DNA of 11,671 nucleotides, taken from NCBI GenBank assembly GCA_002686955.1, contig NYZA01000164.1:1-11671 (forward strand). The letters run 5' to 3'. The notes below the pieces were generated by a model. It saw nothing but the letters and a program-made list of their open reading frames with translations. It was not told where the DNA came from and searched no databases. Source of the DNA: Gemmatimonadota bacterium. Lineage in GTDB: Bacteria; GCA-2686955. A program made the position numbers and the translations under genes. Shown here piece after piece: positions 1 through 11,671 of this stretch. Numbering within the stretch: the stretch's first letter is position 1; each line of letters begins with the position of its first letter.

Positions 1-21
1 ACCGTTCGGCGTCATGGGCAT
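1..21 (-). CDS. Start of an unidentified gene running off the left edge (partial)
   Basis: Only seven codons (MPMTPNG) lie inside the window, so no function can be given. The start is called from its signals. On the minus strand GGGAGG (positions 33-28) sits six bases before an ATG at 21-19, which is an ideal Shine-Dalgarno arrangement. A promoter-like pair, TTGTCC and GATAAT, lies just upstream at 78-49. A second ATG at 15-13 in the same frame is less well spaced. The gene starts 75 bases after the stop of the regulator gene on the same strand and appears to have its own transcription start. It could also be a chance start. Confidence 0.5.
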
Positions 22-48
22 CGGGAACCTCCCTTGGTCGGCCCCGGC

Positions 49-78
49 ATTATCCCGGCAAAGGCGGCGGCAGGACAA
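49..78 (-). promoter_or_regulatory. Candidate sigma70-type promoter for the left-edge gene
   Basis: On the minus strand the -35 element is TTGTCC (78-73, 4 of 6 matches to TTGACA) and the -10 element is GATAAT (54-49, 5 of 6 matches to TATAAT), with an 18-base spacer. Transcription would begin near 42, giving a short leader of about 20 bases that contains the GGGAGG ribosome binding site. It is one of the better-looking promoters in this GC-rich window. It has not been tested. Confidence 0.5.
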
Positions 79-96
79 GGGAGGGAGAAAGCCCGG

Positions 97-708
97 TCAA
101 TCCTTGAAGCGGAAGTGTTCGATCCGTTCGACACTGACATCGTCGCCGAGTGTGGCCTGGATTAGACGGAGCTCGCTCTCGCAAAGGCTGGGGCAGATCC
201 GGGCCGCCCTTTCGATCGCACAATGGCTCTCCACGAGCTCGACTCCACCGCCCGATCGGCGCACGGACTCGGCCATGTAGTTCTCTTCGCGTCTGATTCG
301 CGCCAATTCGGTGATGCGATCGGCCAGAGATGCCTCGCTCCGCTCCGGAATGCGGGCGCGGTAGCGCTCGAGCTGCCGCTCGGCTCGATCGGCCACCAAT
401 CTCTCCAATCCCTCATCACCGAAGAGGTCTCGAATCGCTAGCAGCAAACCCGCCGCGAACTCCGCGTGAGAATCCGGGAATCGGGCGTGCCCCTTGGACG
501 TCAAGCACCAGAGATGAGCCGGACGACCCTTGCCGCTCCGCTCCTTGGTGTAATCGACGAGAGCGTCCGCCCGCAGACCGGCGAGCTGCTGATGAGCCGC
601 CGCCGCGGTCACCCCCAGGTTCTCCGCGATCTTTCCCGCGGTCATCGGTCCCAGGGTCTTGAGCATGACGAGCAGTTTCTCCCCGGAGGAGGCGCCGCTA
701 CCCGCCAT
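97..708 (-). CDS. SufR/DeoR-like helix-turn-helix transcriptional regulator
   Basis: Predicted cytoplasmic DNA-binding regulator of 203 residues. Residues 8-70 form a winged helix (EKLLVMLKTLGPMTAGKIAE, then a recognition-helix region) ending in the GRPxxLW wing (61-67) typical of the SufR-like group. The C-terminal part keeps the family pattern HC...CPSLCxxEL, with Cys163, Cys172 and Cys176. Cys163 and Cys176 are 12 residues apart, as in the first Cys pair of cyanobacterial SufR. The later family cysteines, including the usual C-terminal RCxY end, are absent because the protein stops at IEHFRFKD. An Fe-S cluster, if bound, would need unusual ligation. I chose the ATG at 708, which overlaps the end of the flavin-reductase gene by 11 bases. 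A TTG at 726 would add six residues. It is probably co-transcribed with that gene and may autoregulate; its targets are unknown. Confidence 0.8.
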   Translation of the reverse strand: MAGSGASSGEKLLVMLKTLGPMTAGKIAENLGVTAAAAHQQLAGLRADALVDYTKERSGKGRPAHLWCLTSKGHARFPDSHAEFAAGLLLAIRDLFGDEGLERLVADRAERQLERYRARIPERSEASLADRITELARIRREENYMAESVRRSGGGVELVESHCAIERAARICPSLCESELRLIQATLGDDVSVERIEHFRFKD

Positions 709-1201
709 AGAAGACGTTCTCGCCAAGATCCCTGAGCCAGAGAGTGGCGTCGTCGGCGCGGCCCTCGGGAAGCTCGCGCACCGCGGCTTCGGTCACCTCG
801 CCGACAACGATCGAATGGTCCCCAATCGTGAGAGTCTCGACCACGCGACACTCGACCCAGGCCGGCGTCGCCGTGAGGACCGGAACTCCCCCGGGGCTGC
901 GCTCGAACGCGTGACCGCCGATCGTATCTCCCTCGCGCTCGTGCGGCTTGAAGAAGGTGAAGGCCAGATCCTTCTGGTCCTTGCCCAGGACGTTCAAGGC
1001 AAACCGCCCGGAGTCGCTGACGATCGCATGCGATCTCGAATCGACCTTGACTCCGATCGCCACGAGGGGCGGTTCGAAGGAAGCCTGCGTGGCCCAATTG
1101 ATCGTGGAAGCGGCAACCGAGTCGTCGCCGGCTTCAGCGGTCAAGACATACAGGCCATAGGGGATCATGCGGAGGGCGGTCTTTTTGGCATCATTGTTCA
1201 T
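698..1201 (-). CDS. Flavin reductase-like FMN-binding split-barrel protein
   Basis: Predicted 167-residue cytoplasmic flavoprotein of the flavin-reductase-like domain family, which binds FMN and uses or supplies reduced flavin. The N-terminal IPYGLYVLTAEAGDD, the central ASTINWATQASFEPPLVAIG (FMN-binding strand-loop region) and the ending GENVFYGG are typical. The substrate or partner cannot be read from sequence. Some relatives act in rubredoxin or diflavin systems of anaerobes. I start it at the ATG at 1201, preceded by CTGGAAACCCA, because the further ATG at 1252 overlaps a good -10 hexamer and so could not be in the transcript. That longer reading would add 17 unconserved residues. It overlaps the following regulator gene by 11 bases, so the two form an operon. 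Confidence 0.85.
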   Translation of the reverse strand: MNNDAKKTALRMIPYGLYVLTAEAGDDSVAASTINWATQASFEPPLVAIGVKVDSRSHAIVSDSGRFALNVLGKDQKDLAFTFFKPHEREGDTIGGHAFERSPGGVPVLTATPAWVECRVVETLTIGDHSIVVGEVTEAAVRELPEGRADDATLWLRDLGENVFYGG

Positions 1202-1251
1202 TGGGTTTCCAGGTGTTGGGAAACATCCGTCGTGCGGATTCCTTTCAGTCA

Positions 1252-1280
1252 TTGATAAAGCGAATCCTATATAAAGTCAA
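1252..1280 (-). promoter_or_regulatory. Candidate promoter of the flavin reductase-regulator operon
   Basis: On the minus strand TTGACT (1280-1275, 5 of 6 matches) and TATCAA (1257-1252, 4 of 6) are separated by exactly 17 bases in a locally AT-rich patch. The -10 hexamer overlaps an upstream in-frame ATG (1252-1250), so translation must start downstream at 1201. A 6-bp inverted repeat (GGATTC at 1267-1262 and GAATCC at 1241-1236, 20 bases apart) straddles the -10 and the likely start site and could be an operator. Confidence 0.5.
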
Positions 1281-1369
1281 CGGGGCCGGTCGCGTTTGTT
1301 GGAGGGCTGCGCGCTTGCTCCTTGCCGTTCGTTATCATTGACGGGCTGTCCCCACAAGTGACGCGCCGG

Positions 1370-1399
1370 TTGATGGAATCGCCGATCCTGCGCTAAACT
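1370..1399 (+). promoter_or_regulatory. Weak candidate promoter of the first beta-helix gene
   Basis: TTGATG (1370-1375, 4 of 6) and TAAACT (1394-1399, 4 of 6) are 18 bases apart, about 60 bases ahead of the ATG at 1460. The match is only moderate and the surrounding DNA is GC-rich, so this is a suggestion. The 207 bases between the divergent genes at 1201 and 1460 hold this candidate, the opposing promoter at 1252-1280, and nothing else I can identify. Confidence 0.3.
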
Positions 1400-1459
1400 T
1401 GGTGGACGCGCTTCGGATTTCGCCGATCGCACCAGGGGTGATTCCACGAGGAGGACTTC

Positions 1460-2704
1460 ATGCATCGACCCCATGATTCCCATTTTGGGACGACAAGTAC
1501 GTCTTTCCGCGCTCCGCTCGCGGGAGCATTCGCCCTCGCGTTGATCTGGGCCGGACCAGGTCGCGCCTGGACGATCAATGTGCCGGCCGACATGCTCACG
1601 ATCCAGGCCGCGATCGACACGATTGCAGCCGGCGATACCGTCATGGTTCATCCCGGCAACTACGCCGAGTCGATCGATTTCGGCGGCAAGTCGATCGTGG
1701 TCACCGGAACGGCGCCGGACGAGCTCGATACCGTCAAGGCCACGGTCATCGATGCCGGCGGCCTCGCGACGGTGGTGAGCTTCCAATCCGGAGAGGACGA
1801 AGGTGCGGTGCTCGCGGGGCTCACTCTCACCGGAGGGCGTGGTGCGCCAAACGGCGGCGGCGTCAATTGCGACGGCGCCAGTCCGACTCTTGACCACTGC
1901 GTGATCATCGCGAACAGTGCGGCTGAGAGCGGGGGCGGAGTGAGCGGTAGCGACGCTTCTCCAACTCTCAGCGACTGCATCATCGACAGCAACTTCGCCT
2001 CTACGGCGCAAGGAGGAGGCTTCTCATTTTCCGGATCATCGAATCCGACCTTCGTGCGCTGTCTGATCGCTCGAAACCACGCGGCGACACGCGGGGGTGG
2101 CGGCGCGTGCTCCGATGGCACGGAGCCGTCTCTGAGCAACTCCGTCGTGTTCTTCAACACGGCCGATGGCAGAGGCGGCGGTCTGGCGGTGGGCGGGTCG
2201 GGCGCAATGACACTCACAAACTGCGCCATCAGCGAGAATCTGGCCGAGGCAGGAAGCGGTATCGACGTACGCGCACTCGGCGCACTGATGATCGATCAGG
2301 TCACGGTCGCCGGAAATGTCGCGAATCCCTCGGGCGGCGCGATCCTGCTGGCGGGTGAAGGATCGATCGGCAACAGCGTGTTGTGGGGCAACTCACCAGA
2401 TGAGATCATGCTCGAGGGCGCGGGCAGCGCAGATGTGCGCTACACCGATGTGAGAGGTTCATACTCGGGAGAAGGGAACCTCGATGTGGACCCAAACTTT
2501 GCTCTCTACTTCCAGCGTGGCTATCCCCTCCGCGCCGGCTCGCCTTGCATCGATGCCGCCGATCCGGCTGTAGAGGACGGTATCTGGGACGCGCATCCCA
2601 GCTGGCCGGCACCCTACTCGAACGGCGTCCGGGCCGATATGGGTGCATACGGCGGTCCGGGAAACGCCGATTGGATCGGCTTTCTCGCGCTTCTTGGCCG
2701 CTGA
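1460..2704 (+). CDS. Secreted right-handed parallel beta-helix repeat protein
   Basis: A 414-residue exported protein. A positively charged N-terminus and a hydrophobic run (about residues 18-31, LAGAFALALIWAG) end in an AxA-like site near GRA-W (36-37), consistent with a signal peptide. Residues 38-100 match the start of many such proteins (INVPADMLTIQAAIDTIAAG, then DTVMVHPGNY). Residues 120-315 carry five to seven PbH1-type coils of about 23-28 residues with GGG turns and the pattern SPTLxxCxIxxN. The end (GNLDVDPNF, SPCIDAADP, DMGAYGGPGN) is the usual closing segment of the family. No C-terminal sorting domain or anchor is visible, so it may be released to the periplasm or outside. The ribosome binding site GAGGAG (1449-1454) is five bases before the ATG. 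Polysaccharide binding or cleavage is known in the fold, but no catalytic residues can be assigned. A paralogue lies at 6240-7313. Confidence 0.9.
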   Translation: MHRPHDSHFGTTSTSFRAPLAGAFALALIWAGPGRAWTINVPADMLTIQAAIDTIAAGDTVMVHPGNYAESIDFGGKSIVVTGTAPDELDTVKATVIDAGGLATVVSFQSGEDEGAVLAGLTLTGGRGAPNGGGVNCDGASPTLDHCVIIANSAAESGGGVSGSDASPTLSDCIIDSNFASTAQGGGFSFSGSSNPTFVRCLIARNHAATRGGGGACSDGTEPSLSNSVVFFNTADGRGGGLAVGGSGAMTLTNCAISENLAEAGSGIDVRALGALMIDQVTVAGNVANPSGGAILLAGEGSIGNSVLWGNSPDEIMLEGAGSADVRYTDVRGSYSGEGNLDVDPNFALYFQRGYPLRAGSPCIDAADPAVEDGIWDAHPSWPAPYSNGVRADMGAYGGPGNADWIGFLALLGR

Positions 2705-2729
2705 TGATTCGACCCGTCTGCGCTATGAT

Positions 2730-2791
2730 GGCCTGCCCCTACGAGGAACAGGAATACCCCGCCGGAGGGCGGGGGAAGGCAGGCCTTCTTT
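2730..2791 (+). terminator. Nested hairpin element, probable terminator or structured RNA
   Basis: Two sets of complementary segments lie here. CCCCGCC (2757-2763) pairs with GGCGGGG (2768-2774) around the four-base loop GGAG. GGCCTGCC (2730-2737) pairs with GGCAGGCC (2778-2785), enclosing the first hairpin. An alternative short hairpin GAAGG/CCTTC (2775-2779 and 2784-2788) competes with the outer stem and is followed by TTT (2789-2791). The element starts 25 bases after the stop of the beta-helix gene, so termination is the simplest role. The two mutually exclusive pairings and a TATGAT (2724-2729) just before the outer stem also allow a small structured RNA. It matches no riboswitch consensus I know. 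Confidence 0.5.
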
Positions 2792-2831
2792 CATGGTGCA
2801 GCGATCGAACGACTTCGGAGGCATCGCATCT

Positions 2832-3184
2832 CAGCCGCACTACCCGCAAGTTCGGGTCGATCCCGACGGAAAAGTGTTGCGGAAACTTGGCTTCAATCCG
2901 GGCACTGAGATCTTGCGCCGCCAGCTCACCGAAGCCCCGGATGTCGAGGGACGTATCCTGGCGGGGAAAGAGCTGGCCGAGACCGGGAAGAGACGCAACA
3001 TAGAAGCGATAGGAGCACAGCCTACACGAGTGAACCCTTCTGGGGCGTACGGGTGGAGATGGCCCGTGCATTGGCGAAGGCTAGGAGCGAGCACGCAATC
3101 GAGGCGTTGGTGAAGATGCTCGAGAGCGAATCGGATCCGATCGCCATGGCCAGGGTGGCCGCGGCGCGCGGCTCGTACCGCGAC
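2832..3184 (+). pseudogene. Frameshifted remnant of an M1-family aminopeptidase C-terminal region
   Basis: No intact gene fits, but two frames read in order resemble the C-terminal part of M1 metallopeptidases. The frame from 2832 gives VRVDPDGKVLRKLGF, then GTEILRRQLTEAPDVEGRIL and AGKELAETGKRRNIEAI. Known members have the pattern VRxDPxGxxLKxLxF followed by a HEAT-like region. Around 3009-3031 the similarity switches frame and goes on as SEPFWGVRVEMARALAKARS, then AIEALVKMLESESDP and VAAARGSYRD; the DPFWGVRxEAARALG motif is characteristic. Only about 115 of the usual 800-900 residues remain. There is no catalytic HExxH part and no plausible start, so this is decayed DNA rather than a functional gene. 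A sequencing indel could explain the frameshift but not the missing N-terminal body. The rest of 2705-3283 holds the hairpin element and nothing else I recognise. Confidence 0.65.
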
Positions 3185-3283
3185 GCACGAACGGCTTCCG
3201 CTCCGCGCACCTATCTCGACCGCGAAGGGCGGTGCCCGATGGTGTTGTCAGGGTTTCGACGACCAGCGAATCACCTCGACCCC

Positions 3284-4987
3284 TCAGGCCCCACCCAGCG
3301 ACCCGATCCTTCCCCAAGTAGCCGGATCGAGCCTCGACGAAACCGCCAGAGGCCAGTGCCAGACCGCACGCCCGATCTGCGGAGTGTCGCTATTTGGTGC
3401 CCAATCGAGCCTTACGAAACACCGCGCGATTCTCGGATCGACACGCGGCGGCCCGGGAGCGGAAGACCAGCGCCACAAGCTCTGATCATCCGCCATCAGC
3501 TCCGGATCGTCGAGCCGCCCTGAATACTCTCCGATCACCTTGTCGATCGCCGTCGACCGCCCGCGGCCATCGAAGCTCCACCGGAAGGCCCAGTCCCCGG
3601 TCCCTGAAATCCGTCGGTCGCCGTCCGCATCGACCCAGACTGTCAAAGTCGTGATGCCGCCTGTCCCTCCTGGAAAGAAGTGTCGCTCGAGGGCCAACTC
3701 CCCTGTCGCGGGGTCGAGCTGGATCGGCAGGGCTCGCTCCACCTCGAGACTCTCCCCGCCTGGGGGACGGTTTGCGAGCTGCATCGGGGCGCGGCTGTTT
3801 ACGCCGCCGGCCGCCTCGATGGCGACCAGGTTCCAAGTGCGCCACCACCGCATTCTTCTCAAGTCGAGTTGCGGTACGTCACGGATTCGGGGTTGGGCAC
3901 TGCCGGGCTCCAGCTCGAAAGGCGCGAGAGAGAGCTCCTTGAGATCGCGCACTGCCGTGGGCACCGCGTCGATCCACTCCCTCTGAGCAGCCGGAAGCGC
4001 ACCCCGCAAGGCCTCGGCGAATCCGTCGACTGGTCCGCGGGCCGTGGCCGCCGCCTCGGGAGAGAGCGTGCCCCCGCGCCGCAGCCGTACCAAGGCCTCG
4101 ATGATCGGCTCCACTTTGCGCGCCGTCTCTTGTGAGAGCCTCGGCCCCTCCCCATCCGCCAGCCGATGAATGCCCAGCACCGTCCGCGCGAGCGAGTCGG
4201 CGTTGTAGGGGTCGGCGCGCCCCGCCGTGATCGATCCGACCAGCACCGCCGCCGCCGCGAGAACCACCCCGAACGCGCGCTTCACGAGAGCCGGACGCAT
4301 CCGCCCGATTCGGTGAACCCGCGACCCGATCGCCCCGCCGATCAGAGCAGCCGGCGCACAGATGGCCGCCCAGCGCAGGTCCACCACTCCGTAGCTCCAA
4401 TGGCCCAGGAAACCCGCGGCCGAGGCTGCGACCACGATCGGCGCGGTCGTTGCGGCCGCACGCAGCGGCGGAACACCCGCCGCCAGCAAGACGGGCAAGG
4501 TGACGATCCCGCCGCCGATCCCCAGGAGTCCCGCGACCACACCGTTGACTCCCCCAAGACCCGCTCCGGCGGCTACCTGAATCGATCGCCTGGGCCAGCC
4601 GCGCCCGCGCCCCCCCTCGCGCCGTCCCCCCTCCGCCTGCAGCAAAAAGCGCAGCGACGCGAACGCGAGCAGCGCCACGACCCCCCAACGCAGCATTCGC
4701 ACATCGTGCCGCCCCGCCTCGAAGGCGGCCAACGGGGCCAGCGCGATCCCGATCGCCGCGGCGGGCCATACGATCAACCCGATCGCCTGGCGCCGCCGTA
4801 TGTACTCGATCGACGCCGCCGAGCCCGCGAGCATGTTGAGAAGGAGAGCCGTCGATGCGGCAACCCGGTAGGAGGCCCCGAGCCCGTAGATCAGAGGCAG
4901 GTAGACGATTCCCCCCCCGAGGCCAAAGGTCGTGAAAAGCGCCGCGACCCCCGTGACCGCAAACGCGGCCAGGGCGATCTCGCTCAC
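3284..4987 (-). CDS. TauE/SafE (TSUP) family membrane transporter with long C-terminal domain
   Basis: Predicted inner-membrane protein of 567 residues. Residues 1-255 are a TSUP unit with two inverted halves: FTTFGLGGGIVYLPLIYGLG (18-37) and VNGVVAGLLGIGGGIVTLPV (147-166), each starting a multi-helix bundle, about eight membrane segments in all. Family members move sulfite, sulfonates, sulfide-derived anions or other small organic anions. Residues 256-567 are additional and soluble. A helical part (about 262-355) is followed by a beta-rich part with an acidic loop DADGDRRIS (453-461) that resembles a calcium-binding loop but lacks the final Glu of an EF-hand. Ordinary TSUP proteins end near 250-300 residues. 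The start is the GTG at 4987, which overlaps the preceding gene's TGA (GTGA) and is preceded by GGAG four bases away. An ATG at 5050 would add 21 residues. The substrate is inferred only from family and from its sulfur-carrier-type neighbours. Confidence 0.8.
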   Translation of the reverse strand: MSEIALAAFAVTGVAALFTTFGLGGGIVYLPLIYGLGASYRVAASTALLLNMLAGSAASIEYIRRRQAIGLIVWPAAAIGIALAPLAAFEAGRHDVRMLRWGVVALLAFASLRFLLQAEGGRREGGRGRGWPRRSIQVAAGAGLGGVNGVVAGLLGIGGGIVTLPVLLAAGVPPLRAAATTAPIVVAASAAGFLGHWSYGVVDLRWAAICAPAALIGGAIGSRVHRIGRMRPALVKRAFGVVLAAAAVLVGSITAGRADPYNADSLARTVLGIHRLADGEGPRLSQETARKVEPIIEALVRLRRGGTLSPEAAATARGPVDGFAEALRGALPAAQREWIDAVPTAVRDLKELSLAPFELEPGSAQPRIRDVPQLDLRRMRWWRTWNLVAIEAAGGVNSRAPMQLANRPPGGESLEVERALPIQLDPATGELALERHFFPGGTGGITTLTVWVDADGDRRISGTGDWAFRWSFDGRGRSTAIDKVIGEYSGRLDDPELMADDQSLWRWSSAPGPPRVDPRIARCFVRLDWAPNSDTPQIGRAVWHWPLAVSSRLDPATWGRIGSLGGA

Positions 4988-5721
4988 GAAGCTCCAGAGC
5001 AGACCGGGCAGTCGGGCCGCCGCGGAGCATCGAGTCGCTGGAAGCTCCATCGGGCCAGGTCGAAGCGGAGCAGACGACCCCCCGGACCCCCGGGAAGCCC
5101 GGCGAGGATCTTGACGACCTCCGCGGCGCCGATGCAGCCCGCGACCGCAGAGGTTGCGCCAAGCACCGGAAAGGGCTTCTCGAGCGGTGGTGGCGACTCA
5201 CAGAGGCACGCCAGACAGGCGCTCTCGCCAGGGAGCACGACGAGCACCTGACCGAGCCACCCGTGCATTGCCGCATCGATAAAGGGGATACGCGCGCAGA
5301 CCGCCGCTTCGTTGAGCCAGAGTCGCTGCTCCATCGAAGGCGGAGCACTCAGCACCGCATCCATCCCCGCCACCAGCTCCTTCGCGTGCTCCCGGGAGCA
5401 CGTATCGGAGCCGATCGCCTCGTAAACGATATCTCCATTCACCCGCCGCAACGCCTCGATCCCGGAATCGATCCCCGGATCCCCCAAGGCTGTGTCGGCC
5501 ATCGCTATCATGCGGTGCATATGCGCCGGCTTGATCGGCTCACCGTGCGCCACGCGCAACCGGCCGATCCCCGCCACGGCCAGCTCGAGCGCCGCCGGAC
5601 CGCCGAGCCCGCCGATCCGAGCGCAAAGAACCGACGAAGCAGCGAGACGGGCCTGTCCCTCGGCACCAAAACCGGGCAGGAGCATCTGATCCCTGGCTCG
5701 ATCCAGCGGCGGAATCGTCAT
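4984..5721 (-). CDS. MoeB/ThiF/HesA-like E1 homologue with degenerate nucleotide site
   Basis: A 245-residue protein of the ThiF fold, normally an enzyme that adenylates the C-terminal Gly of a MoaD or ThiS partner. The family outline is clear: RARDQMLLPGFGAEGQARL (8-26), the Rossmann region VLCARIGGLGGPAALELA (31-48), GAAEVVKILAG (198-208) and the zinc motifs CxxC at 169/172 and 238/241. The active-site residues differ. By ungapped comparison with E. coli MoeB from memory, the first Gly of GxGGLG is Arg35, the DFD of the second strand is His59-Gly60-Glu61, the Lys after the Arg finger is Gly83, and the TDN aspartate is Pro128. The Arg finger (Arg70) is kept. It may therefore bind its partner without the usual ATP chemistry. 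GGGAGG lies six bases before the ATG at 5721, two bases after the MoaD-like gene's stop. It overlaps the transporter gene by four bases. Confidence 0.82.
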   Translation of the reverse strand: MTIPPLDRARDQMLLPGFGAEGQARLAASSVLCARIGGLGGPAALELAVAGIGRLRVAHGEPIKPAHMHRMIAMADTALGDPGIDSGIEALRRVNGDIVYEAIGSDTCSREHAKELVAGMDAVLSAPPSMEQRLWLNEAAVCARIPFIDAAMHGWLGQVLVVLPGESACLACLCESPPPLEKPFPVLGATSAVAGCIGAAEVVKILAGLPGGPGGRLLRFDLARWSFQRLDAPRRPDCPVCSGAS

Positions 5722-5723
5722 GC

Positions 5724-5990
5724 TCAACCTCCCGCGAGCGGGCTGAAGAGGAGGACTCGCTCCGCGCCATCCAGGTCGCGCGACGCCGGATCCGGAACGA
5801 TCTCGCCGTCGACCGCTACGATGATCTTGATCGGGCCACCGGGGTCGCAAATCCGGGATCGGTGGGGCGCGCCGACCAGCTCGGCCACGTGCCGGACCGC
5901 GTCGGCGGCCGAGGCGGCGCCCGAAGGGTCGAAAACGAGGCTCCGGCGGCCCGCAAGGTCGGCCAGAGCGGAATCGAGCTCGATGATCAT
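5724..5990 (-). CDS. MoaD/ThiS-like ubiquitin-fold sulfur-carrier-type protein
   Basis: A small cytoplasmic protein of 88 residues. Its C-terminal half (IKIIVAVDGEIVPDP, then RDLDGAERVLLFSPLAGG) follows the MoaD pattern of an AVN/D strand, a D-G-x-E/D-V turn and a free C-terminal Gly-Gly. In MoaD and ThiS this Gly-Gly is adenylated and thiocarboxylated to deliver sulfur for molybdopterin or thiazole. The middle helix (about 27-40) and overall length fit the family. It is the first gene of a three-gene minus-strand operon, two bases ahead of its E1-like partner. Its own ribosome binding site is weak (GGAAG about ten bases upstream). The 249 bases between its start and the divergent beta-helix gene hold no convincing promoter. 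Whether it serves Mo/W cofactor, another sulfur pathway or protein tagging cannot be decided here, and no moaE or thiG is visible. Confidence 0.8.
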   Translation of the reverse strand: MIIELDSALADLAGRRSLVFDPSGAASAADAVRHVAELVGAPHRSRICDPGGPIKIIVAVDGEIVPDPASRDLDGAERVLLFSPLAGG

Positions 5991-6239
5991 TTTCTGAATG
6001 CTTCCGTGGGTTCGGATCGGGAAAGAGGCGCGGCGAGCATATCTCGAATCTGGGCTTGGGAGGCGATACGCGATATCAAGACCCCGCCCCCGGATGCGAC
6101 GCAAACTCCAACGGTCGTCACCGACGAAGGGCCTGAACAGCCCGCGCTTTTGAACGCGTGCGCCGGAGCGCTCGTCGCTCGCGCGCGGCAAGACTACGGT
6201 TACCCTTGCGCGGACCCCAATCGCCCAAAGGAGGGCATC

Positions 6240-7313
6240 ATGAAGAACCGCGCCAGTGTGATCGCGCTCATCGCCACCACCTCCGCCACCGCGGCCACGA
6301 TCCACGTCCCCGGCGACCAGCCCACCATTCAAGCGGGGATCGACGCCGCCGCGCTGAACGATACCGTGTTCGTTGCTCCAGGAACCTACACGGGGGCGGG
6401 CAACAAGAACCTCGATTTCGGCGGGGTCGATCGCGTGCTGCTCTCCGAAGCCGGAGCGGATGCCACGGTGATCGATTGTGAGGGGGACGGCAGAGGGATG
6501 TACTTCGGCGGTGGCGAGAGCGAGAGTTCCGTTCTGGAGGGCTTTGCTGTCATGCGGGGTGACGACTACTACGGCGCCGGCGCCGGAATCAGGGTGGACG
6601 GCAGCTCTCCCACACTGCGGCACATTACGATTTCCGATTGTCGTGGTGACGTCGGCGGAGGCATCACCTGTTTCGATGCGGCGCCGAGGATCGAAGGCTG
6701 CACGATTTCCGACAATAGAGGATTCTACGAAGGCGGTGGAATGGCCTGCTACTCGTCGGCGCCGGTGTTGACGCACTGCACCATCACGAACTGCGGCACC
6801 TTCTACAGCGGTGGAGGGCTCTACTGTGACGGCTCCACTCCAACGCTCATCAACTGCATAATCGCCGAAAACACGGGGGGCGCGTACGGTGGCGGTGGCC
6901 TGTTCTGCACCAGCGACTCGGCTCCCTTGCTGCTCAACTGCACCATCGCCAACAACTCAGCCTACGATACGGGTGGCATCCATTCCGCGCGATCGTCACC
7001 GGTACTGGTCAACTGCGTGCTTTGGGGCAACCCCCCACGCGAGATTCAAGGCGGCGCACCCACACTGACCTACTGCAACGTGCGCGGCGGCTTTCCCGGC
7101 GAAGGCAACATCGATGCCGACCCGCGCTTCCGCTCCTTCGCCGGCTTCGACTACCTGCTCGGCATCTCATCGCCCTGCATCGACACCGGCAGACCGGAGC
7201 TCCAAGACGGCGTCTCGGACTGGCACCCGCTCTGGCCAGCTGGGCATGTCGACGGCCCCCGCTCCGACATGGGCGCCTACGGCGGCCCGAACAACCTCGG
7301 CTGGATTCGGTGA
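6240..7313 (+). CDS. Secreted Cys-rich right-handed parallel beta-helix protein
   Basis: A 357-residue exported protein with a short signal peptide (MKNRASVIALIATTSATAAT, cleavage near residue 19). It has the same opening (IHVPGDQPTIQAGIDAAALN, then DTVFVAPGTY) and ending (GNIDADPRF, SPCIDTGRP, DMGAYGGPNN) as the protein at 1460-2704, so the two are paralogues. Residues 112-262 hold about six PbH1-type coils of 25-28 residues with GGG or GGI turns. Each coil carries a Cys-x9-Cys or Cys-x10-Cys pair (144/154, 170/180, 196/206, 223/234), so two columns of cysteines would stack along the helix. This ladder is much more regular than in the paralogue. GGAGG sits five bases before the ATG at 6240; an in-frame extension reading upstream to 5862 lacks such support and would bury the signal peptide. 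It ends 19 bases from the convergent ModC-type gene. No catalytic residues are recognised. Confidence 0.9.
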   Translation: MKNRASVIALIATTSATAATIHVPGDQPTIQAGIDAAALNDTVFVAPGTYTGAGNKNLDFGGVDRVLLSEAGADATVIDCEGDGRGMYFGGGESESSVLEGFAVMRGDDYYGAGAGIRVDGSSPTLRHITISDCRGDVGGGITCFDAAPRIEGCTISDNRGFYEGGGMACYSSAPVLTHCTITNCGTFYSGGGLYCDGSTPTLINCIIAENTGGAYGGGGLFCTSDSAPLLLNCTIANNSAYDTGGIHSARSSPVLVNCVLWGNPPREIQGGAPTLTYCNVRGGFPGEGNIDADPRFRSFAGFDYLLGISSPCIDTGRPELQDGVSDWHPLWPAGHVDGPRSDMGAYGGPNNLGWIR

Positions 7314-7315
7314 AC

Positions 7316-7329
7316 CGGAGGCGGCTCCG
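7316..7329 (+). terminator. Short hairpin between convergent genes
   Basis: CGGAG (7316-7320) and CTCCG (7325-7329) can pair around GCGG, between the stop of the beta-helix gene and the stop of the convergent modC-type gene. There is no T-tract on either side, so it would be a poor intrinsic terminator. It is listed because it is the only candidate in this 19-base gap. Confidence 0.2.
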
Positions 7330-7332
7330 TCC

Positions 7333-8373
7333 TCAGCGCCGCCCGATCACATGAACCCCCTCCGTGTCGACGGCCACCCGCACATCCGCGCCTTCCCGCA
7401 CGCCGATCTCCCTCGCCGCGGCCGGCGAGATCGACGCGAGTAGCCCTTCTCCATCCTCCTCCCCCGGTGCCAATAGCCGCAGCAACAGATCCCGGCTCCG
7501 CCTGCGGACCGACGAGACCCTCGCCGGCTGGCCTCGCCCGCTCTCGGCGCTCATCACCAGCACGTTTCCGGCGCGGATGGCCACCAGGGCAGAACCCGGA
7601 GACAGCCCATTCGGCCCCCGAAGATCGAAGCCCGCGGCCACCATTCGTCCCGCCCGATCCACCTTCGCACGGAGCAGATTGTCCACCCCCACCGAGCGGG
7701 CCACGCTCTCATCCATCGGGTGGTCATAGACACTGTCCAAAGGCCCCCACTGGAGAATCCGGCCTCCACGGATCACCCCGAGATGGTCGGCCAGTGCCAG
7801 CGCCTCTTCCATCTCGTGGGTCACGTGCAGAATGGTTGTGCCCATCGACCTGTGGACATTCCTCAGGACCGAGATCATATCGAGACGGGTGGCCGGATCC
7901 AGTCCCGTAAGTGGTTCGTCCAGAAGGAGCGCGGGTGGATCGGGAGCAAGCGCGCGAGCCAGCGCCACGCGCTGGGCTTCCCCCCCGGAGAGGGTAGAGG
8001 GGCGCCGATCGACCAGATGGGCGATGCCCAGCTCCCCGACAAGATTGGACACTCTAGAGCTGTTGTCCGGTGCCCGGTCATCGAGTCCGAATGCTATGTT
8101 CCTGGCGACCGACATATGAGGGAAGAGGGCACGGTCCTGGGGGACGTATCCCAGTCGCCGGTGCTCGGGAGGCGCGGAGCTGAGATCTTCGCCGTGCGCG
8201 AAAACCGCGCCCGAGTCCATGGGCTGTAGACCCGCGATCGCCTCGAGCAGAAGGGTCTTCCCCGCCCCCGTCGGTCCGACGATGGCGCCGTAGGCACCGG
8301 TCGGCAGATCGAGGCTCATCCCCCGGAGGCGGAAACTTCCGGTCGAGACCCGGAGATCGCTGACTCGGATCAT
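7333..8373 (-). CDS. modC: Molybdate/tungstate-type ABC transporter ATP-binding protein
   Basis: The 346-residue ATPase that powers the oxyanion importer at the cytoplasmic face of the membrane. Walker A is GPTGAGKT (33-40), the Q-loop is Gln79 in GYVPQD, the signature is LSGGE (128-132), Walker B is ALLLDEP (148-154) and the switch His is His186 in HVTHE. All key residues are present, so it should be active. Residues from about 230 to 346 form a C-terminal TOBE-type region (RAKVDRAGRMVAAGFDLRG, then LLASISPAAAREIGVREGAD) that in ModC and WtpC relatives binds oxyanion and gives feedback inhibition. It starts ten bases after the permease stop, with TGGGG about six bases before the ATG, and is the last gene of the operon. 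Sequence alone does not separate molybdate from tungstate or sulfate, and the symbol is by family resemblance. Confidence 0.85.
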   Translation of the reverse strand: MIRVSDLRVSTGSFRLRGMSLDLPTGAYGAIVGPTGAGKTLLLEAIAGLQPMDSGAVFAHGEDLSSAPPEHRRLGYVPQDRALFPHMSVARNIAFGLDDRAPDNSSRVSNLVGELGIAHLVDRRPSTLSGGEAQRVALARALAPDPPALLLDEPLTGLDPATRLDMISVLRNVHRSMGTTILHVTHEMEEALALADHLGVIRGGRILQWGPLDSVYDHPMDESVARSVGVDNLLRAKVDRAGRMVAAGFDLRGPNGLSPGSALVAIRAGNVLVMSAESGRGQPARVSSVRRRSRDLLLRLLAPGEEDGEGLLASISPAAAREIGVREGADVRVAVDTEGVHVIGRR

Positions 8374-8383
8374 CGCGGCCCCA

Positions 8384-9166
8384 CTACCAGAGGTAGCCCT
8401 GGCCGCCGAGCCGCTTGAACGCCACGAGGCTCAATGTGCTGATCGCCAGCATGATCACGGCCAGCGCCATGGCGGCCTCGATCTTGCCCACCGAGAAATC
8501 GAGCCAGATCGCGATCGGCAAGACTTCGGTGCGCCAGCGGGTCGCGCCGCAGAAGATCAGAATCGGTCCGAACTCACCGATTGCGCGGGCCCAGGTCATG
8601 ACCGCGCCTGCCACCATACCTCTGCGCGCGAGCGGTAGCACGACCCGGATGAAGGCGCGCGCCGGCGTGGCGCCCAAGGTGCGCGCCACCTCTTCGAGCC
8701 GAGGATCGATCGAGTCGAAGGTCGCCTTGAGCGTGCGGATGGCGAAGGCCGCCGCTACCAGGAACTGGGCGAGAACGATGCCCGGCACGCTGTAGCGCAG
8801 ATCGAGTCCGCCGGCGACGAGCAGATCTCCGAGTGTTGTCTGGTAGACGACGAGTAGACTGAAGCCGATCAGAAGCGGTGGCAGCACGATCGGCAGATCG
8901 ATCAACGTGTCCACGACCCCCGCGAAAGGGATCTTGAAGCGCGAGAGGGCGTAGGCGGCCGGGAGAGCGAGGGCCATGGCCAGGGCGGTTGTCACCGAAG
9001 CGGTGATCAGAGAGAGGCGGATGGCGAAGAGGGTCTCGGCGTCGGCGATCTCGTTCCATAGAGTCGCGGGGTCGAGGTAGAGCAGATCGGCGCCGACGAG
9101 GATCGCGACGAGAGAGGCGAATGTCGCCAGCATTCCGATCGCCCCGGCACGAAAGGCGCGATTCAC
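8384..9166 (-). CDS. modB: Molybdate/tungstate-type ABC transporter permease
   Basis: A 260-residue inner-membrane permease, of usual length for ModB or WtpB. There are about five to six hydrophobic segments, at 11-29, 52-75, 86-109, 128-145, 184-207 and 232-250. The cytoplasmic EAA loop that docks the ATPase is clear at 158-178 (EEVARTLGATPARAFIRVVL, then Pro). The segment WARAIGEFGPILIFCG (192-207), followed by TEVLPIAIWL, is close to the archaeal and bacterial WtpB/ModB consensus. I use the GTG at 9166 because it forms a GTGA overlap with the stop of the substrate-binding gene, which suggests translational coupling. The alternative ATG at 9133 would remove 11 residues and lacks that coupling. 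It lies between the binding-protein and ATPase genes, as in classical mod operons. Confidence 0.88.
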   Translation of the reverse strand: MNRAFRAGAIGMLATFASLVAILVGADLLYLDPATLWNEIADAETLFAIRLSLITASVTTALAMALALPAAYALSRFKIPFAGVVDTLIDLPIVLPPLLIGFSLLVVYQTTLGDLLVAGGLDLRYSVPGIVLAQFLVAAAFAIRTLKATFDSIDPRLEEVARTLGATPARAFIRVVLPLARRGMVAGAVMTWARAIGEFGPILIFCGATRWRTEVLPIAIWLDFSVGKIEAAMALAVIMLAISTLSLVAFKRLGGQGYLW

Positions 9167-9969
9167 CGAGGCGTCGTCCCGCCTGACAGCCCCGAGGTGT
9201 CGTAGCCCTTCGATCGGAAGACCGAGATCCCACCCTCGGGGTCGGCCATGAACTCGAGAAAGCGCCGCGCCGCCGCCATCTGAGTGCTGGAATCCAGAAT
9301 GCCGAGCGGGATGGTCGTTCTGCGGGAGCTCTCGCGCGGTATCTCCACGGCGTCGGTGTCGCGATCGAAGAGCCCTGCGGTCGCATCCCAGGCGATCGCG
9401 GCGTCGAGAGCTCCCAGTGACACGGCGGTCCCAAGCTCGTTGACATTCAGCGCCGCCATGATCTGATTGGCGCCGATCGATTCCTCGAGCTTCCCATCCC
9501 GCAGCAGGGCGTCCGCCGCGATTCCACAAGCGGTGGCCTCCGGATCGCCCAGTCCCACCCTGACTCCGGGTCGCGCCATATCCGCGAGCTCCTGAATCCC
9601 TTTTGGATTCCCCTCCTGTACGAGCACCACGGGCCACATATGGGCGATCGGTCGCTCCTCGGCGATCAGTCCTCGCTCCCGGGCTTGCTCCATGAAGAAC
9701 TCCTCACCCGGCATGTAGAGATCGCCCCGCCGAGAGAGCGAAGCCTGGGCAAGCAAGCAACCGGAGCCGGCGAATGAGAGCTCGACCGATATTCCGGTCT
9801 CTTCGCGAAAGCGTCCCGCCGCTTCCTCGACCGGTAGGCGAAACCCCGCGCCGACATAGACGAAGAGCGGGTCTTCGGCGCCGCTCCGGCGGAGATTGGC
9901 CAAGGCCAGCGCCGCCAACGCCGACGCGGCACCGATGGCCAACCAAGCGAGACGGGGAAAGGGTCTCAT
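9163..9969 (-). CDS. modA: Molybdate/tungstate-type periplasmic substrate-binding protein
   Basis: A 268-residue exported protein with an N-terminal membrane or signal segment (about 8-25, AWLAIGAASALAALALAN). No lipobox Cys is present. The mature part has the two-lobed oxyanion-binding pattern: LFVYVGAGFRLPVEEAAGRF (35-54), LSFAGSGCLLAQ (64-75), RGDLYMPGEEFFMEQA (81-96), RVGLGDPEATACGIAADALL (137-156) and ALNVNELGTAV with GALDAAIAWDA (173-196). It captures the anion in the periplasm and hands it to the permease. The ATG at 9969 is chosen because the signal segment follows directly. An in-frame start at 10083 would place 38 unlike residues before it. The start has only a weak GGA three bases upstream. 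The family also includes binders of other anions, so specificity is inferred from operon order. Confidence 0.82.
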   Translation of the reverse strand: MRPFPRLAWLAIGAASALAALALANLRRSGAEDPLFVYVGAGFRLPVEEAAGRFREETGISVELSFAGSGCLLAQASLSRRGDLYMPGEEFFMEQARERGLIAEERPIAHMWPVVLVQEGNPKGIQELADMARPGVRVGLGDPEATACGIAADALLRDGKLEESIGANQIMAALNVNELGTAVSLGALDAAIAWDATAGLFDRDTDAVEIPRESSRRTTIPLGILDSSTQMAAARRFLEFMADPEGGISVFRSKGYDTSGLSGGTTPR

Positions 9970-10039
9970 GAATCCGATCGAAGCACGAAAATCATGGAAC
10001 GAGGGGGGATGATCCGGTCGATGAAAGGGGTCAGAATAG

Positions 10040-10057
10040 GAGGATCGGAGCATCCTC
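10040..10057. repeat. Inverted repeat between modA and the small secreted gene
   Basis: GAGGAT (10040-10045) and ATCCTC (10052-10057) form a 6-bp inverted repeat with a 6-base centre (CGGAGC). It lies 71-88 bases ahead of the modA start and 86-103 bases ahead of the divergent gene at 10143, which would suit an operator. It does not match the ModE site pattern I know. Chance is quite possible at this length. Confidence 0.25.
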
Positions 10058-10100
10058 GCATATCCCAAGCCGCCATTCCTCACGAACCCCAGCCGCCGCG

Positions 10101-10132
10101 GGAAGATCGACGGGAAGGCGGGCAGATCTTCC
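10101..10132 (+). promoter_or_regulatory. Leader hairpin next to a ribosome binding site
   Basis: GGAAGATC (10101-10108) and GATCTTCC (10125-10132) are perfectly complementary over eight bases with a 16-base loop. The 3' arm ends directly at the GGAG (10133-10136) ribosome binding site of the gene at 10143. If it is in the transcript, the stem could affect access to that site. Whether it is transcribed is unknown. Confidence 0.35.
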
Positions 10133-10142
10133 GGAGTCTTTC

Positions 10143-10436
10143 ATGCCCCGCCGAATACTAGCCGCCTCCGCACTCTTCCTCACTGGGTTCGCGACAGGAG
10201 CTCTTCTCTCCGCTCCATTCGCGGGGGCCGAGCTTTCCCCCCCCGCGACGTCGGGCATGGAACCGGCGCTCGGTCCTCCCGGAACCACTTACCGCTACGA
10301 AATGGTCTCGATCAAGCCGCTGGGCCGACACCCCGAGCTCTTCGCCACTCTCCTCGAGGAACGAGGCAAGGCGGGTTGGGAGCTGTGCGCCGTGACGCAG
10401 ATCGCGGACTACGCGGTTTTCATGAGGGAAGAATAG
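10143..10436 (+). CDS. Small exported protein with a DUF4177-like domain
   Basis: A 97-residue protein with a signal peptide or single membrane segment (MPRRILAASALFLTGFATGA, cleavage perhaps near residue 29). A low-complexity Pro/Gly stretch (about 30-48) follows. The C-terminal half, YRYEMVSIKPLGRHPEL (50-66), LLEERGKAGWELCAVTQIAD (70-89) and YAVFMRE, fits the DUF4177 pattern of an initial Y-x-V strand, L-N/E-x-x-G-x-x-G-W-E-L, and a final F-x-R strand. The function of that domain is not known. GGAG lies six bases before the ATG at 10143, directly after an 8-bp hairpin. It is divergent from modA and upstream of the kinase gene. The 182 bases between it and the kinase hold no gene I can support. 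Confidence 0.75.
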   Translation: MPRRILAASALFLTGFATGALLSAPFAGAELSPPATSGMEPALGPPGTTYRYEMVSIKPLGRHPELFATLLEERGKAGWELCAVTQIADYAVFMREE

Positions 10437-10618
10437 GCGGACTACTCGAGCAGCTGAGCAAGTCTCAAGCGGGGGGCATCGAAGGGCCGATCCTCTTGAG
10501 CAGGGAAGGCGAAGGTCGTGTCCACTGGCAATCGCGCCGGTGTGGGGGAGCGCCAACCGACCAGCGGTGAGGTCCATGGCGGTCCAGATCCGCTCGGGCA
10601 AGAAGAAGAACCGCTAAG

Positions 10619-11671
<1,053 letters not shown>

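Follow-up and report, generated by a model that had tools for sequence, protein, structure and literature searches.

A HesA-type protein with a replaced E1 active site and its MoaD-like partner lie next to a molybdate/tungstate-type importer

What does a protein of the ubiquitin-activating enzyme (E1) fold do when the residues of its ATP site have been replaced while its ubiquitin-like partner keeps a diglycine tail? The question is raised by two adjoining minus-strand genes on contig NYZA01000164.1 of a Gemmatimonadota bacterium (assembly GCA_002686955.1), analysed from position 1 to 11,671; this whole 11,671-nucleotide stretch is referred to as the window. The first gene (5724..5990) encodes an 88-residue MoaD/ThiS-like β-grasp protein ending in LAGG. 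The second (4984..5721), separated from it by 2 bases, encodes a 245-residue protein of the HesA type, with the E1 fold and an ATP site whose residues have been replaced. We give an even chance to the reading that this non-adenylating HesA-type protein and the MoaD-like sulfur carrier together serve molybdate/tungstate uptake and delivery. It is based on the fold, the loss of the ATP/Mg catalytic set, a replacement set that recurs across phyla, the Gly-Gly of the MoaD-like protein, and linkage to a molybdenum/tungsten (Mo/W) importer.

An AlphaFold model of the E1-like protein (predicted local distance difference test, pLDDT, 92) finds its best fold matches in ThiF (1zud; Z 34.0, root mean square deviation (rmsd) 1.7 over 239 residues, 33% identity) and MoeB (1jw9; Z 34.0, rmsd 1.6 over 237 residues, 28% identity), covering almost the whole chain. 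This agreement and the match to PF00899 (E 7.4e-36) lie far beyond chance and bear out the ThiF fold outline that an earlier note, made from the DNA letters alone, had ascribed to the protein. Both open reading frames are also where that note had placed them, and the MoaD-like one carries the C-terminal Gly-Gly that it had claimed. Residue equivalences were taken from HMMER alignments to the solved structures of ThiF and MoeB and from the family alignment described below; the roles of the individual residues are established knowledge of those two enzymes. In the Gly-rich loop, the first Gly (MoeB G38) is replaced by R35, while D62, F63, and D64 correspond to H59, G60, and E61, K86 to G83, and D130 to P128, so that each substitution named in the earlier note is upheld by the alignment to the structures. 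Two arginines, R70 and R133 (MoeB R73 and R135), are kept, as are the zinc ligands C169, C172, C238, and C241, which form the two CxxC pairs already described there. The note had taken Arg70 for the Arg finger. The residue is indeed retained, but it is the other phosphate-contacting arginine; the arginine finger that MoeB donates in trans is Arg14, and this is lost to Asp11 in the window protein. Also missing is the crossover-loop Cys (Cys184 in ThiF, Cys187 in MoeB). These two losses had escaped the note, along with the relationship to HesA and the molybdate/tungstate transporter. Since the alignment is gap-free across the catalytic motifs, no other residue of the protein makes good the lost functions, and no functional Gly, Asp, Lys, or Asp was placed elsewhere in it. 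The window pair resembles E. coli MoeB with MoaD in fold, zinc site, and a Gly-Gly partner, yet all MoeB adenylation residues examined are replaced; with E. coli ThiF (paired with ThiS), the protein shares fold and zinc site but neither the adenylation residues nor Cys184. Judged by this alignment, the protein is devoid of those residues that, on the model of MoeB, carry out canonical adenylation.

Are these replacements a product of decay or of selection? When 84,980 species genomes were scanned with a pattern that excludes the catalytic positions (F[PG]V[LF]GA[VT][SA]..), more than 400 relatives emerged. The best 80 and two from the genome set gave a family of 82 members besides the window protein, with the reservation that they are its best matches; 27 canonical E1s served as control. 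Four columns are uniform in both groups: MoeB G38 is Arg in 82/82 family members (Gly in 27/27 canonical E1s), D64 is Gly (82/82; Asp in 27/27), K86 is Arg (82/82; Lys in 27/27), and D130 is Pro (82/82; Asp in 27/27). Moreover, R14 is replaced by Trp (81/82; Arg in 26/27), D62 by His (78/82; Asp in 26/27), and N70 by Asp (81/82; Asn in 27/27), while no family member varies at R73, R135, or any of the four zinc Cys. According to record titles, its members belong to the Planctomycetota, Verrucomicrobiota, Lentisphaerota, Kiritimatiellota, Hydrogenedentota, Omnitrophota, Poribacteria, Armatimonadetes, and Bacteroidota. The window protein departs from the family at Glu61 (family Gly), Gly83 (family Arg), His67, and Met71. 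As the family agrees internally against the window at Gly61 and Arg83, the signature is more than similarity to the query.

These columns show strong constraint on the replacement residues in the family. Random decay is out, given that the replacements are conserved across 82 homologues while the canonical E1s retain the catalytic set. The preference of the earlier note for a pseudo-E1 or altered chemistry over decay agrees with this recurrence of the same non-catalytic residues in several phyla, and of the substitutions that it would have sought in homologues near moaD-type genes, Arg35 and Pro128 are present in all 82 relatives and His59 in 78, with Gly and Arg at the positions of Glu61 and Gly83. 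That the gene itself is a decaying pseudogene is scarcely credible: a long branch in the tree (2.96) and the four departures from the family would suit such a fate, but the frame is open, its coding base composition is like that of its neighbours, the spacing to the preceding and following genes is tight, the zinc Cys and Arg70/Arg133 are kept, and the fold model is confident.

A pure pseudo-E1, that is, a MoaD-binding scaffold, regulator, or delivery adaptor whose old ATP pocket stays empty, would explain why the catalytic set is wholly lost while fold, zinc site, architecture, and the Gly-Gly of MoaD are kept. We consider it possible, if somewhat doubtful, since a plain scaffold is not expected to fix Arg35, Gly61, Arg83, and Pro128 in 82/82 members. 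In the pocket, conservation of the new residues equals that of the catalytic ones in real E1s, and the replacements persist in loci without a MoaD neighbour. Alternatively, MoaD could still be activated, with ATP or another phosphate donor, via the new Arg/His set; Arg70, Arg133, and the Gly-Gly tail remain, and arginines are able to bind phosphates. Such altered activation is unlikely, because nothing is left of the two acidic Mg/ribose residues, of the catalytic Lys, or of the TDN Asp, and the trans Arg finger is lost as well as the crossover Cys. A canonical E1 close by in several MoaD loci and residues beyond the Gly-Gly in three MoaD partners (see below) also speak against it.

The nearest known protein is, by phylogeny, HesA, because nif-side HesA and the MoaD/transporter-linked branch form one clade apart from the canonical E1s (support 100/99). 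Within the MoaD-linked branch, the window protein stands at the base (support 94/71) and, with the long branch mentioned above, is the most divergent member; one other genome of the phylum, searched for nearer relatives, gave no match at E 1e-33. The three nif-side sequences have His at D62, as in the window protein (H59), Gly at D64, and Arg at K86, yet retain Gly38 and Arg14. Gly at D64 and Arg at K86 thus make up a consensus, unpublished and drawn from this analysis, that holds in 82/82 family members and 3/3 nif-side sequences and from which the window protein deviates with Glu61 and Gly83. Two of the three nif-side references lie in nif clusters, one with nifV, nifX, nifN, nifE, and nifK (L037) in the gene order known for Paenibacillus nifENX-(orf1)-hesA-nifV, the other with nifV and nifB (L038). 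Nif HesA of Paenibacillus, cyanobacteria, and Frankia shares the E1 fold, Arg73, Arg135, and the zinc Cys with the family, but keeps Gly38 and Arg14 and carries Pro, Tyr, or His at Asp130. Unlike the window gene, it resides within nif operons and has no adjoining MoaD. The window protein is hence no nif HesA proper, which belongs to the nif cluster of a diazotroph: its context is a Mo transporter, and the genome (84.5% complete) gave no PF00148 match.

Genetic data exist for HesA of Paenibacillus polymyxa, where deletion of hesA nearly abolishes nitrogenase (PMC6361004). The defect is suppressed by high molybdate or cystine, whereas nifQ or E. coli moeB does not fully rescue it, and nitrate reductase is unaffected in the mutant (PMC6361004). 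HesA function has thereby been linked to Mo and S delivery (PMC6361004), and a part in the assembly of the iron-molybdenum (FeMo) cofactor has been proposed for it.

What, then, connects the window pair to molybdenum or tungsten? Upstream of it and on the same minus strand, the window carries the genes of an ATP-binding cassette (ABC) importer. A ModA-like substrate-binding protein (9163..10083; TIGR01256 modA, 63.9 bits, passing the cut-off of 62.5) is followed by a molybdate-type permease (8384..9163; TIGR01581 Mo_ABC_porter, 215.5 bits, passing the cut-off of 210.3), whose open reading frame as listed extends to 9637 and whose family match starts near 9079. The third gene encodes a WtpC/ModC-like ATPase (7333..8373; best NCBIfam match tungstate_WtpC, E 6e-78, below its cut-off). 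With all three components present, and the ATPase below the WtpC cut-off, the importer is called molybdate/tungstate-type. It resembles ModABC/WtpABC importers in these matches and differs from them in its genetic linkage to MoaD and a HesA-type protein. The linkage recurs among relatives: in loci with at least 5 kb of flank on each side, the window excluded, a same-strand Mo-type permease lies no more than 5.5 kb away in 16/17 MoaD-bearing loci, as against 9/33 loci without MoaD. Where the maps of relatives were read, moaD usually comes directly after the ATPase gene.

In some loci, TauE or a canonical E1-rhodanese is linked as well. TauE is found near the gene pair in five other MoaD loci (L035, L056, L063, L066, and L087), and a canonical E1 with the length of a rhodanese fusion (363-378 residues) is close by in L049, L067, L087, and L093, all MoaD loci. 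Counting L079, L086, and L088 as well, a second, canonical E1 in the neighbourhood would suit an inactive half of a heterodimeric E1, which completes the active site of a canonical partner in the manner of APPBP1/UBA3. This arrangement is very unlikely here, as the residue that an E1 donates to the partner site (MoeB Arg14) is Trp in 81/82 family members and Asp in the window, and most loci have no second E1 nearby.

The MoaD-like partner has the two hallmarks of a MoaD/ThiS-type carrier, a β-grasp fold and a C-terminal Gly-Gly. Alone, it matches ThiS PF02597 at E 0.0024, below the curated cut-off, while 29/29 aligned MoaD-like family members match this Pfam family. Its model (pLDDT 92) has SAMP1 and MoaD as best fold matches, with template modelling (TM) scores of at most 0.80 (SAMP1). 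It is like SAMP1, MoaD, and Urm1 in fold and terminal Gly-Gly and unlike them in that its partner protein is without the residues of activating chemistry. A search with a hidden Markov model of the MoaD partners placed such a gene upstream of the E1-like gene in 31/86 loci. These partners share only 14-28% identity with the MoaD-like protein of the window, and the Gly-Gly is kept in 31/31, in 28 at the very end. In the other three, 2-20 residues follow (L035:10767-11051, L064:9705-9977, and L105, just upstream of 9980); such tails would require trimming before C-terminal chemistry. MoaD is present across the tree branch and its absences are scattered, a pattern that fits repeated loss. At L115:7611-8558, one open frame covers an ABC ATPase and a MoaD-like protein, so that importer ATPase and sulfur carrier appear to be fused.

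Could the pair simply belong to the molybdopterin (MPT) synthesis of its host? The MoaD neighbour and the molybdate-type importer would suit a MoeB that has drifted, but this is most improbable in a genome that has its own MoaD-MoaE frame and a canonical E1-rhodanese, and for a protein whose catalytic residues are gone. The MoaD-MoaE frame, on host contig C85 (L134:3940-5406), appears to be a single-chain MPT synthase. Contig C249 carries ThiS-ThiF with ThiG and ThiE, and contig C27 (L001) a MoaD-E1-rhodanese triple fusion beside JAMM protease and CysM-like genes. The C27 row looks like a cysteine pathway of the CysO kind, its carrier and activating enzyme apparently united in one protein. As these sets are separate in the host genome, the window MoaD-like protein is a dedicated fourth carrier. 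There is no sign that it serves MPT synthase, MoaE being absent from its neighbourhood. This client was rejected also because MoaE was not found in 10/41 locus-bearing genomes. MoaC went undetected in 8/41, and several of the genomes without MoaE or MoaC may be incomplete. The host itself has MoaC and molybdopterin oxidoreductases. In the genomes of L049, L052, L056, L066, and L118 and in G144, all of which carry the locus, MoaC was found and MoaE was not.

Other candidate clients fared no better. Nitrogenase was above cut-off in only 1/41 locus-bearing genomes, and an aldehyde ferredoxin oxidoreductase was found neither in the window genome nor in 32/41 of the locus-bearing ones. Two recurring neighbours, one resembling pyrroloquinoline quinone (PQQ)-propeller, LamG, and methyltransferase proteins (c4), the other uncharacterised with CxxPVF and CSC motifs (c5), were each rejected as a universal client with 17/86 loci, and c5 was not found in the window genome, a weak negative. 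The c5-type family (L111:5116-6384, L110:6524-7726, and others, 17 loci) has the motifs ACxxPVFxYALxRW and CSCxVK; the member scanned (L111) had no Pfam or NCBIfam match. Close to its genes, the same clusters often contain a PQQ-propeller protein (L111:1484-5089) as well as an FtsX/LolD-type pair.

For the proposed role of the HesA-type protein and its carrier in moving Mo/W and sulfur, to which HesA genetics and the transporter linkage point, the following course may be envisaged. The tail of MoaD would be loaded with sulfur, as a thiocarboxylate, elsewhere by a canonical MoeB-rhodanese enzyme of the cell, and the loaded carrier would then dock on the HesA-type protein just as MoaD docks on MoeB. 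The former ATP pocket, which in the family is stripped of acidic residues and lined by Arg35, Arg70, Arg83, Arg133, and His59, could hold an oxyanion, molybdate or tungstate, in place of MgATP. Sulfur and metal would finally be brought together and handed on, the part that HesA has been proposed to play when the FeMo cofactor is assembled; these last steps are suggested by HesA genetics together with the transporter linkage. A more specific version is tentative and distinctly doubtful: in a lineage that extends over many bacterial phyla, the E1 fold would have been rebuilt as an oxyanion binder, and the ubiquitin-like thiocarboxylate carrier would put sulfur on molybdate/tungstate, or hand over both, in a cofactor-assembly route outside MPT synthase and nitrogenase.

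Several observations weigh against the proposed role in Mo/W and sulfur delivery. An adjoining MoaD is missing from over half of the family loci, which means that some members do without MoaD or that its gene lies elsewhere in the genome. The Arg35 position is Gly in nif HesA, so the HesA and MoaD-linked branches may differ in function. The pocket of the window protein, with Glu61 and without Arg83, is less basic than that of the family, and since Gly stands for family Arg83 and Glu for family Gly61, this member may have drifted or specialised. Finally, a nitrogenase-type subunit (PF00148) has no match in the window genome (84.5% complete).

We found no published description of a MoaD/transporter-linked HesA branch in the open literature searched, which omits most subscription journals. 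What HesA does in nitrogen fixation has yet to be clarified. A widespread branch in bacteria mostly without nitrogenase, linked to a Mo/W importer and often to a MoaD of its own, suggests that HesA-type proteins are general Mo/W-sulfur handlers and offers simpler systems for study. The family is also a clear case of an E1 active site replaced by another conserved residue set without loss of the diglycine tail in the ubiquitin-like partner.

On the downstream side, the pair is joined by a gene for a TauE/SafE membrane protein with a long additional C-terminal region (3284..4987, minus strand; PF01925, E 1.5e-28). Its GTG start (4987) shares 4 nt (GTGA) with the stop of the E1-like gene, and the three genes form a tight minus-strand unit. 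Because a plus-strand gene for a secreted right-handed β-helix-type protein (6240-7313) separates the ATPase gene from the moaD-like gene, this unit probably has its own promoter; a promoter/terminator scan gave no candidate. A second secreted protein of the right-handed β-helix type is encoded at 1460-2704 on the plus strand, and another similar-looking one adjoins the canonical E1 on host contig C27 (L001 from 2703). Downstream of the TauE gene, genes for a SufR-like regulator and a flavin reductase overlap each other on the minus strand (97-726 and 698-1252).

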